Positions 7,063-11,138 of a DNA stretch of 64,000 bases are shown in pieces (position 1 is the first letter of the stretch; every line of letters starts with the position of its first letter). The stretch comes from an uncultured Flavobacteriaceae bacterium (GTDB lineage: Bacteria > Bacteroidota > Bacteroidia > Flavobacteriales > Flavobacteriaceae). The notes beneath the pieces were generated by a model. It had not been told where the DNA came from. It saw nothing but the letters and a program-made list of their open reading frames with translations, and did not search any database. Location: positions 1 through 64,000 of the forward strand of contig CANLWG010000014.1 of NCBI GenBank assembly GCA_947494715.1. Reading direction: 5' to 3'. The translations under genes were made by a program, and so were the position numbers.

Positions 7063-7833
7063 ATGGCGGTAGATACAGCGGAAGGGGTCATCTCACATAT
7101 CCAGGCGGACTTTGCCGACGGCAGGGACAGCCAATACCTGAAGGGTATCGGCCTGCGGGTCCAGGACCGTTTAAGGAAGAACGAGCTTACAATGACGGAC
7201 CTGTTGGCGGACACAGGGTATTCCAATGGTGCCAATTACGACTTTCTCGAACAAAGGAAGGTCACCGGATGGATACCCGTCTTCGGGAAATATAAACCCG
7301 AATTGGAAGGTTTCCCCTACGACAGGGAAAAGGACGAATATAGGTGCCCGATGAACAGGCCCCTGCCCTTCAAGGCATTCTATACCAACCGTGACGGGAG
7401 GGTACTGAAAAACTACTGGGCCGCACCGAAGGACTGCAAGGCCTGCCCCATGAAATCCCAATGTGTGCCGAATACGAAATGTAAAAAGATAATCAGAACG
7501 ATTTATGACGAACAATACCTGAGGGCCTACGCCAGACAGCACAGTGAAAAGGGCAAACGGATGAAAAAGCTTAGGCAAAGTACGGTGGAACCCATATTCG
7601 GTAGCCTGACCCAGTTCTACGGTTTAAGAAAAATAGGCGTACTGGGCAAGGCCGGTGCACATAAGGTCATGCTAATGGCCGCGATCGCCTTCAACCTGAA
7701 AAAATACCTTAAAAAAGGTGGAAGGAAGCCCTCCATTGGCATTTTAAGGACCATTATGGATGCCCTAGAAGTCAACCTAATCGCTTTTTATCGGCAAATC
7801 CAACCAAGACAGGTTCTCATAAAGACTCCCTAA
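7063..7833 (+). pseudogene. IS1182-family transposase, N-terminal half missing
   Basis: The remaining 256 residues match the C-terminal half of IS1182 (DDE) transposases. There is a conserved M-A-V-D-x-x-x-G-V-I-S-H start of the core, a D-T-G-Y-S-N-G segment, the paired CxxC positions (CKACPMKSQC), and a final E-P-I-F-G region ending in MLMAAIAFNLKKYLKK. The DNA-binding N-terminal half is absent, so the protein should not work alone. The ATG at 7063 is just where the surviving frame begins. The element could still be mobilised by a full-length relative. Confidence 0.85.
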
Positions 7834-10311: not shown

Positions 10312-10581
10312 CTAAAATGTTTCTCGGGCGTGTTTCTCTATGTATTCCATAATAGACTCCCTGTCGTAAAGAATAATTTTCCTATGAGGCTGTGAAAACC
10401 TAATTTTTCCTTCGTCTCTCAATTTTTGAAGGGTTGTTGTAGATTTTATTTTGAGGATGGACATGGCTTCCCCACCATCAATCCACTTTTCAGGTGCGCC
10501 CTGTCTTTTAGATTCGACATGTTCAATCACCTTTTTAAACAAGGCATAAAAGGCTTCCTCCTGTAGACAAACAACTTGCAT
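10312..10581 (-). CDS. Excisionase-like helix-turn-helix protein
   Basis: An 89-residue protein. The C-terminal part (about residues 30-85) matches the HTH_17/MerR-like Xis fold: W-I-D-G-G-E-A-M-x-I-L then K-S-T-T-T-L-Q-K-L-R-D-E-G-K-I, a wing (S-Q-P-H-R-K-I-I-L-Y) and D-R-E-S-I. Such proteins direct tyrosine-recombinase excision of integrative elements. No integrase gene is in the window, so this looks like a remnant. A tRNA gene, the usual target of such elements, lies 314 bp away, with 11-bp tandem repeats between. Confidence 0.78.
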   Translation of the reverse strand: MQVVCLQEEAFYALFKKVIEHVESKRQGAPEKWIDGGEAMSILKIKSTTTLQKLRDEGKIRFSQPHRKIILYDRESIMEYIEKHARETF

Positions 10582-10884: not shown

Positions 10885-10894
10885 GATTAATAAG

Positions 10895-10968
10895 TGGTCC
10901 CACCTGGGCTCGAACCAGGGACCCCCTGATTATGAGTCAGGTGCTCTAACCAACTGAGCTATAGGACC
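10895..10968 (-). tRNA. tRNA with CAT anticodon (Met, or Ile2)
   Basis: A complete 74-nt cloverleaf on the minus strand. The acceptor stem is GGTCCTA with TGGGACC (one G-T pair), the D-arm is GCTC/GAGC, and the anticodon stem CCTGA/TCAGG closes the loop CTCATAA with anticodon CAT at 10934-10932. The T-arm contains GGTTCGAGCC. The discriminator is A and CCA is not encoded. It is not an initiator tRNA, because the first pair is G-C. Elongator Met and lysidine-modified Ile2 cannot be separated by eye. A strong terminator follows. Confidence 0.95.
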
Positions 10969-10990
10969 ATTGTATTCACTAAATTAAACT

Positions 10991-11090
10991 GGTACCGCTC
11001 TAACCCCGTCCGAACGGTGAACACGTTCATCCGGACGGGCAACTGAGCCCCGACTGCCATATGGGCAGGTATAGGACCCGCAAATTGCGG
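10991..11090 (-). other. Partial tRNA copy interrupted by palindromes; possible structured RNA
   Basis: Three blocks equal 26 consecutive bases of the neighbouring tRNA (10943-10968, its nucleotides 1-26): 10997-11004, 11040-11048 and 11070-11078, all exact and in order. Between them are two GC-rich palindromic inserts. Insert one is 11005-11039, with CCCGTCCG pairing CGGACGGG. Insert two is 11049-11069, containing CTGCC pairing GGCAG. A third palindrome (CCGCAA-A-TTGCGG) is at 11078-11090. On the minus strand GGTCC can pair with GGTACC (10991-10996, one bulged base), and the D-stem GCTC/GAGC can still form. The fragment could therefore fold as a closed three-way junction. It lies upstream of the tRNA on the same strand. 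Remnant or RNA gene is undecided. Confidence 0.6.
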
Positions 11091-11138
11091 ATGCAATATT
11101 ACCACTTATTTTTAAGGGTTGCAAGGTATTTTTACCAG

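Follow-up and report, generated by a model that had tools for sequence, protein, structure and literature searches.

A palindrome-broken tRNA-Met relic in a Flavobacteriaceae genome as a probable miniature of homing-like GIY-YIG units at tRNA genes

The tRNA-Met locus of the window

The stretch of DNA analysed here (the window: 64,000 nucleotides of contig CANLWG010000014.1, assembly GCA_947494715.1, from an uncultured Flavobacteriaceae bacterium) carries on its minus strand an intact tRNA-Met(CAT) gene that is preceded by a second, broken copy of the first 26 nucleotides (nt) of the same gene. Direct reading of the letters and a script both resolve this copy, referred to below as the relic, into three exact collinear blocks separated by two palindromic inserts. 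A genome of the same genus, G002, provides an empty site in which the same leader runs directly into the tRNA; the net insertion in the window is therefore 110 base pairs (bp; 11078-10969), and the relic lies at the original tRNA start. In order of position, the locus is made up of the following features, in which ORF stands for open reading frame.

10894..10968, minus strand: intact tRNA-Met(CAT), read as the regenerated copy (ARAGORN; Rfam RF00005, 71.3 bits)
10969..10996, minus strand: 28-nt spacer, the slot of a GIY-YIG ORF in relatives at the cognate tRNA gene
10997..11004, minus strand: relic block 3, tRNA nt 19-26 (exact match)
11005..11039, minus strand: insert 2, a 35-nt palindrome in the D-loop, between tRNA nt 18 and 19
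11040..11048, minus strand: relic block 2, tRNA nt 10-18 (exact match)
11049..11069, minus strand: insert 1, a 21-nt hairpin with a CTGCC/GGCAG stem, between tRNA nt 9 and 10
11070..11078, minus strand: relic block 1, tRNA nt 1-9, at the very position where the tRNA once began (exact match; G002 empty site)
11079..11138, minus strand: leader of the original tRNA gene, which today precedes the relic (matches the G002 empty site at 57 of 60 positions)

An earlier reading of this DNA, made from the letters alone (the sequence-only reading), had reported tRNA nt 1-26 in order on the minus strand at 11078-11070, 11048-11040 and 11004-10997, with inserts of 21 nt and 35 nt at junctions 9/10 and 18/19 that both fold as hairpins, and each of these points is confirmed, the matches being exact. 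Its dismissal of chance is likewise borne out, as the chain of exact blocks amounts to 26 nt, a value that none of 10,000 dinucleotide-shuffled versions of the 300-nt region attains (best 24), nor any of 5,026 other 300-nt stretches of the window on both strands (best 10). Folding of positions 10991-11090 gave a z-score of -2.50 as RNA (3 of 200 shuffles as good) and of -2.91 as DNA (2 of 200). An intron-containing or split gene as the source of the tRNA is not indicated, given the intact copy alongside.

The suggestion that this is a decayed tRNA with palindromic insertions at loop sites was also correct, and similar relics are present in relatives. The third palindrome that had been noted, at 11090-11078, does exist, but all except its last base belongs to the old leader and is found in the G002 empty site. 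A closed three-arm RNA derived from the tRNA, which had been proposed in addition, is unsupported: its outer closing stem, GGTCC/GGTACC, is absent from the minimum-energy structure, in which GGTACC is unpaired, and relatives that carry an ORF have a reading frame in this region. The larger recurring arrangement, with a GIY-YIG nuclease between relic and intact tRNA, is invisible from the window alone.

GIY-YIG units at tRNA genes of relatives

The same anatomy of tRNA leader, palindrome-broken 5' relic, spacer and intact tRNA occurs at many Flavobacteriaceae tRNA genes, and in several of these units the spacer is an ORF of about 80-85 residues. All four ORFs tested matched the Pfam GIY-YIG family PF01541 (E 1.5e-15 to 5.1e-15). 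A full unit is composed of a 5' part of a tRNA behind its own leader, broken by palindromes, followed by a GIY-YIG ORF on the same strand and a complete tRNA. The window shares with these units a relic that starts at tRNA nt 1 behind the original leader, palindromes at loop or junction positions (in the window two, at 9/10 and 18/19), and a complete cognate tRNA downstream on the same strand. There is no GIY-YIG ORF between its relic and tRNA; the 28-nt spacer is without an ORF, and tblastn searches for unit ORFs gave no match in the window. Because the spacer holds no such ORF, we class the locus as an ORF-less relative and not as a full unit. In our assessment its 110 bp are probably the miniature, ORF-less remnant of one of a family of homing-like GIY-YIG units that regenerate their target tRNA.

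A close parallel is found at the same tRNA-Met gene in other genomes. Locus L255 (genome G272) has the same leader and the same upstream gene, followed by tRNA nt 1-22, a palindrome, a GIY-YIG-like ORF of 81 amino acids (aa; tblastn E 1e-27 to a unit ORF) and an intact tRNA-Met, and is, judged by its sequence, a full unit at the locus orthologous to that of the window. A second relative carries a unit with an ORF at its cognate tRNA-Met behind an additional decayed relic (L257, G094), so that ORF-bearing units are present at this tRNA in two relatives and at the orthologous locus in one of them, L255. In addition, L256 (G137) contains the leader, extra sequence and an ORF-less unit, while an unclassified metagenome-assembled genome (MAG) combines an 18/19 hairpin, an ORF and tRNA-Met (L083). 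A pattern for insertions after nt 18 of tRNA-Met matched 3 of 397 genomes and is blind to a split at 9/10 such as that of the window.

Beyond tRNA-Met, a PF01541 search of 12 genomes, together with the loci read, placed units at genes for Leu(CAA), Arg(CCT), Ala(GGC), Asp, Ser(TGA), Asn, Pro and Arg(TCG), and the relics of these units hold palindromes of several other kinds. The loci studied include 23 distinct units of ORF and tRNA, 18 of which have a relic by a 12-nt rule; the five that fall below it are L218, L244 and L241, with shorter relic blocks, and L174 and L201. For Asn, a unit with an ORF (L235) has ORF-less counterparts (L082, L090), and the same is true for Asp (L224 and L185 with an ORF, L092 without). 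Locus L240 resembles the window in having two palindromes in one relic, arranged as tRNA nt 1-10, palindrome, 10-22, palindrome, 23-38, and bears an ORF as well. Tandem arrays of units occur at L173 and L240.

The association with tRNA genes can be expressed as a count for six of the 12 genomes. Among 38 short GIY-YIG ORFs, a number that excludes ORFs longer than 170 aa as well as G002 C8:700880, G002 C7:1063798 and G413 C40:20595, 15 have the start of a same-strand tRNA no more than 160 nt downstream, where about 0.0007 per ORF would be expected by chance if 45 tRNAs lay at random in 5 Mb. A further 6 of the 38 have a tRNA or transfer-messenger RNA (tmRNA) upstream within 600 nt.

The unit nucleases are under purifying selection, though some copies look decayed: in all eight ORF pairs compared, nonsynonymous divergence (dN) was 0.02-0.41 against a synonymous divergence (dS) of 0.31 to saturated. 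A nuclease tree was built from 31 rows, after 3 of 34 had been removed as overlapping duplicates and pieces with stops or below 60 aa had been excluded earlier. On this tree tRNA identity requires 15 changes, against a minimum of 11 and a mean of 21.7 after shuffling, and 0 of 200 shuffles are as low. Host genome, for the nine genomes with more than one row, requires 16, against a minimum of 8 and a mean of 15.2 after shuffling, and 189 of 200 shuffles are as low. Since tRNA identity tracks the tree and host genome does not, nuclease lineages follow their target tRNA, which is the pattern that would be expected of site-specific selfish genes.

We propose that these units persist by homing, as the most likely mechanism, in which the nuclease would cut its own tRNA gene wherever that gene is unoccupied, and the unit would be copied in when the cut is repaired on an occupied template. 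The unit carries the missing 5' end of the tRNA, and therefore a complete tRNA stands downstream and the old 5' end is left as a relic. From its position, the ORF would depend on the promoter of the host tRNA for transcription, with the tRNA then freed by RNase P. Palindromes break the relic at the D-loop (18/19, 21-23) and at the junction of acceptor stem and D-arm (9/10); perhaps they stop re-cutting, perhaps they keep the relic from competing in folding, or perhaps they are passive. In the window, the ORF may have been lost or may never have been present. Taken together, we lean towards the view that bacterial chromosomes, at least in Flavobacteriaceae and one unclassified MAG, harbor a family of minimal selfish nuclease genes whose lineages keep to a single tRNA gene. 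Such genes would split the tRNA, restore it with the 5' end that they carry and put the surplus end out of action by means of palindromes, and the window would be a miniature from which the nuclease has been lost.

Several further loci are of note. In L238 and L248 a GIY-YIG ORF lies a few hundred nt downstream of a tmRNA, with repeated sequence between the two in L238. L249 (G191:C34) holds eight GIY-YIG ORFs in tandem, repeating about every 360-370 nt, and no tRNA was found in the 4.7 kb examined. At L201 (G013), ARAGORN places a tRNA-SeC(TCA) directly after the GIY-YIG ORF, which may be a false call. The tRNA-Asp relic of L092 (about 1478-1610) appears, by eye, to have T-A in place of G-C at acceptor pair 1-72.

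Palindromes within and outside tRNA relics

Insert 2 of the window is of the CCCG[CT]CCG..CGGACGGG kind, and the same kind occupies the same site in relics of Val, Asn, Arg and Asp tRNAs in relatives. Hairpins of the form CCCG[CT]CCGGATGAA..TTCG[GA]ACGGG lie exactly at 18/19 in 5' relics beside an intact cognate tRNA in several relatives: G002 has one at tRNA-Val, an Allomuricauda MAG has them at tRNA-Val and tRNA-Asn, a Croceivirga MAG at tRNA-Asn, and two further Flavobacteriaceae at tRNA-Arg and tRNA-Asp. A relic of tRNA-Phe in a relative likewise has a hairpin at 18/19. Junction 9/10, the site of insert 1, also holds a palindrome in three tRNA-Arg relics (L127, from the window's own genome, L137 and L142).

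Palindromes are concentrated in the relic part of the units. With strong hairpins defined by a threshold of our own choosing (-13 kcal/mol in 36 nt), and using the 18 units with a relic by the 12-nt rule, 16 of 18 relics contain one, compared with 1 of 18 ORF pieces of equal length and 3 of 18 upstream pieces; shuffled relics lead one to expect 3.2 of 18. Perfect palindromes number 9 in 1,390 nt of relic, 1 in 4,053 nt of ORF and 3 in 2,470 nt of upstream DNA, and when mismatches are allowed 5 of 18 relics have one against 0.34 expected, both being counts that miss asymmetric hairpins.

A covariance model built on the hairpin by itself found 18 places in 11 of 397 family genomes. Four of these are D-loop relics (the window, G002, G091 and G160), and four resemble 3' relics of Asn or Lys tRNAs (G235, G228 twice and G191). 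The place in G143 belongs to a tRNA-Phe leader in which a D-loop-hairpin relic is present as well, that in G352 is a weak one near tRNA-Val, and the eight in G177 and G356 are without a relic. A looser pattern for the palindrome superfamily, applied to 14 genomes, found more palindromes than its reversed control (for G177 and G356, among the matches listed). Every distinct superfamily place was then read in four genomes (G000, 2; G143, 5; G412, 2; G413, 7). Of these 16 places, 5' tRNA relics account for 12 and a tRNA-Phe leader for one, while L140 and L141 are unexplained. The remaining place, L136, resembles a 3' tRNA-Lys relic, has a low score in the flank test described below and has no tRNA in the stretch examined. 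Rfam gave no confirmation of L141 as a 5S ribosomal RNA relic. In the window's own genome (5.97 Mb) the superfamily pattern occurs at two places, both of them 5' tRNA relics, the second being a tRNA-Arg(TCT) relic whose palindrome occupies junction 9/10, as insert 1 does in the window. A third relic in this genome, of tRNA-Gly, has a truncated palindrome that has lost about 10 nt of one arm.

The sequence-only reading had held that common dispersed repeats as inserts would count against it, and this is in part what was found, as the superfamily to which the palindrome of insert 2 belongs is dispersed in some relatives. Places outside tRNA relics include 7 of the 8 listed in G160 and those read in G177. 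When the flanks of palindromes were joined, 37 of 86 real pairs scored at least 15, compared with 9 of 86 mispaired ones; the control is inflated because the D-arms of different tRNAs are alike, and 37 of 86 is a biased rate because many places came via a query that contained part of a tRNA relic. Mobilization of the palindromes by a Y1 transposase was considered and rejected, with PF01797 in just 7 of 14 palindrome-holding genomes and one hit in the window's genome.

In viral contigs the strict relic pattern had 0 matches, and the hairpin pattern had seven stretches, none with a tRNA by ARAGORN, which by eye are chance matches; among phages and plasmids, no record had a place that covered 80% of the hairpin. 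A generic D-loop-insert pattern matched 5 of 249 family genomes, and by eye a relic with a strong hairpin was seen among these in the window's own genome only.

In a folding test, hairpins raise the predicted chance of correct pairing of the acceptor stem in 5 of 11 ORF-less units and are of no help in the other 6, the window included, where this value is 0.00 with hairpins and 0.01 without. In all 11 units, predicted pairing of the tRNA is poorer in the presence of the relic than for the tRNA by itself. Insulation of the tRNA by the palindromes was considered and rejected, given the six units that gain nothing.

Two observations concern other relics with palindromes. A tRNA-Gly(TCC) relic with palindrome and spacer recurs in a Thr-Tyr-Gly-Thr tRNA cluster (L134 1481-1600; L150; L222 in G000). 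The identity of this block is 96% between Croceivirga and G002 (over 120 nt) and 87% between G000 and Croceivirga, while the neighboring spacers diverge. Mirror-image 3' relics, made up of the T-arm and the 3' strand of the acceptor stem of Asn or Lys tRNAs and likewise associated with palindromes, lie downstream of or near a tRNA at L106, L107, L109, L112 and L090.

Origin of the locus and known systems

How well a GIY-YIG origin explains the window depends in part on what else could have produced a trace of this kind. One such explanation, which we regard as rather unlikely, is plain decay, in which a tandem duplicate of tRNA-Met rotted, dispersed palindromes resembling repetitive extragenic palindromic (REP) elements landed in it by chance, and a nuclease was never involved; insertions would be visible in redundant copies alone because they are lethal in a single copy. 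The window, having no ORF, fits such a history, as do the superfamily palindromes outside tRNA relics in G177, G356 and G160, and L092 is a near full-length tRNA-Asp relic that was duplicated along with its 5' flank. Chance landing, however, does not sit well with the excess of strong hairpins in relics over ORFs and upstream DNA, with palindromes at the same few positions in unrelated tRNAs, or with the finding that both superfamily places in the 5.97 Mb of the window's genome are 5' tRNA relics, and the ORF-bearing unit at the orthologous tRNA-Met gene of a relative argues for the involvement of a nuclease.

It is also conceivable that the leader contains a selected structured RNA acting as a processing signal, decoy or regulator, which we consider very unlikely. 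The conservation of the tRNA-Gly block between Croceivirga and G002 amid diverged spacers would suit such an RNA, as would the improved acceptor pairing in 5 of 11 ORF-less units. The Gly palindrome of the window's genome has nevertheless lost part of one arm, the hairpins of the window do not aid correct pairing, the predicted pairing of the tRNA is worse beside the relic in every ORF-less unit, and the element is patchy in its presence, with an empty site in the same genus. In an alignment of the D-loop hairpin, 0 of 17 predicted pairs were changed on both sides, which is a weak test with five sequences that are few and similar. Least credible to us, and extremely unlikely, is the remnant of an attachment site: a tyrosine-recombinase island would have inserted on the 5' side of the tRNA and been lost by a subsequent deletion. 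A precedent for the order of parts exists in an archaeal mobile element with a 5' tRNA fragment upstream of a reconstituted tRNA, as far as the available text of its description goes (PMC3293823), but 110 bp is too short for an integrase, and in the relatives read it is a GIY-YIG nuclease that takes this position.

Against the descent of the window from a GIY-YIG unit stand a number of observations. The window has no ORF and its spacer no match, and it is we who infer an earlier ORF, as we do the cutting and mobility of the units, from comparison of genomes. The regenerated tRNA keeps the whole tRNA sequence and should be as cuttable as the original, so that its escape from re-cutting is unexplained. 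For the window taken by itself, a tandem duplication into which palindromes were later inserted would account for the trace equally well. Neither in kind nor in site do the window's palindromes (CCCGTCCGG kind, at 9/10 and 18/19) agree with that of L255 (CCTGCC kind, at 22/23), so that one gene may have received two independent insertions. Strong clustering in the nuclease tree is limited to Leu, Asp, Arg(CCT) and Ser, and none of Ala, Arg(TCG), Arg(ACG) and Met forms a single group. No tRNA lies inside the set limits for 17 of the 38 short GIY-YIG ORFs (including two from the interior of a tandem array and one whose tmRNA was detected by Rfam alone), and some short GIY-YIG genes therefore sit away from tRNAs. 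Decayed-looking ORFs occur in the Ala unit of the window's genome, in which the last residues depart, and in the Leu unit of G002, which is in two pieces. Finally, the identity of the tRNA-Gly block could reflect transfer or selection.

A nuclease gene of this kind beside tRNA genes is not without precedent. In T-even phages, the tRNA cluster contains the gene of SegB, a homing endonuclease of the GIY-YIG type that is free-standing and is listed with the tRNA intergenic region as its target (PMC2988022); SegB has been linked to phage tRNAs and to the tandem amplification of a tRNA-segB repeat (PMC13096335). On the available portions of these sources, the units resemble SegB in being intron-less GIY-YIG genes beside tRNA genes and in forming tandem arrays, as at L173 and L240, and the GIY-YIG domain is present in the four ORFs tested in relatives and absent in the window. 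In contrast, SegB resides in phage genomes and the units in bacterial chromosomes, and the same portions describe neither a palindrome-broken 5' relic nor the rebuilding of a split tRNA. The unit ORFs, at about 80-85 aa, extend hardly beyond the GIY-YIG domain.

The manner in which the host gene is restored has its closest counterpart in fungal mitochondria, where mobile endonuclease ORFs come with duplicated gene ends (Allomyces atp6; Glomus atp6, atp9, cox2 and nad3). The insert there supplies a replacement end for the host gene, whose expression is thereby maintained, and the former end remains behind (PMC3630166). These cases, in the text available, differ in involving protein genes, 3' ends and mitochondria, with GIY-YIG in one of four Glomus cases (atp9), and that text describes no tRNA targets or palindrome-broken relics. 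In the archaeon Caldiarchaeum subterraneum, a 5' tRNA-Thr fragment, a mobile element and a complete tRNA follow one another in the same order as here, whereas palindromes have 0 occurrences in the main text of the report, the part available (PMC3293823).

REP elements and GC clusters form the comparison class for short GC-rich imperfect palindromes. The palindromes found here are likewise short, GC-rich, imperfect and, in some relatives, dispersed, and they differ in being concentrated in tRNA relics in several genomes and in having a Y1 transposase (PF01797) in no more than 7 of 14 host genomes. A literature search by title and abstract, with preprints and most subscription journals outside its scope, returned no GIY-YIG unit in bacterial tRNA genes among the matches listed. 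What appears to be new here is the combination, in bacterial chromosomes, with palindrome-broken relics, which was not found among those matches.

Large integrated elements use tRNA genes as landing sites. It appears that tRNA genes also host a far smaller guest, a nuclease gene of about 80-85 codons that has settled in an essential gene without breaking it. If this is true, it would account both for short GIY-YIG genes beside tRNA genes and for odd tRNA fragments in tRNA leaders, and it would offer a simple test case of a homing gene that lives in an essential, very short, non-coding gene. The palindromes of the relics pose a question of their own, namely whether they are a safety device, a scar of cutting or hitchhikers.

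Two other ORFs of the window and two loci from other lineages complete the observations. The window ORF at 7063-7833 is, from its appearance, presumably an IS-type transposase, and the small ORF at 10312-10581, downstream of the tRNA, has the look of a helix-turn-helix excisionase-like protein. In a Moranbacteria MAG (L089), an intact tRNA-Ile with an inverted repeat of about 17 bp around it separates, as seen by eye, the two halves of another tRNA-Ile; the acceptor halves of this second tRNA match one another, and its D-loop contains a hairpin. In a Peribacteria MAG (L088), two successive tRNA-Thr relics with hairpins in the D-arm and anticodon loop, again as seen by eye, are followed by an intact tRNA-Thr.
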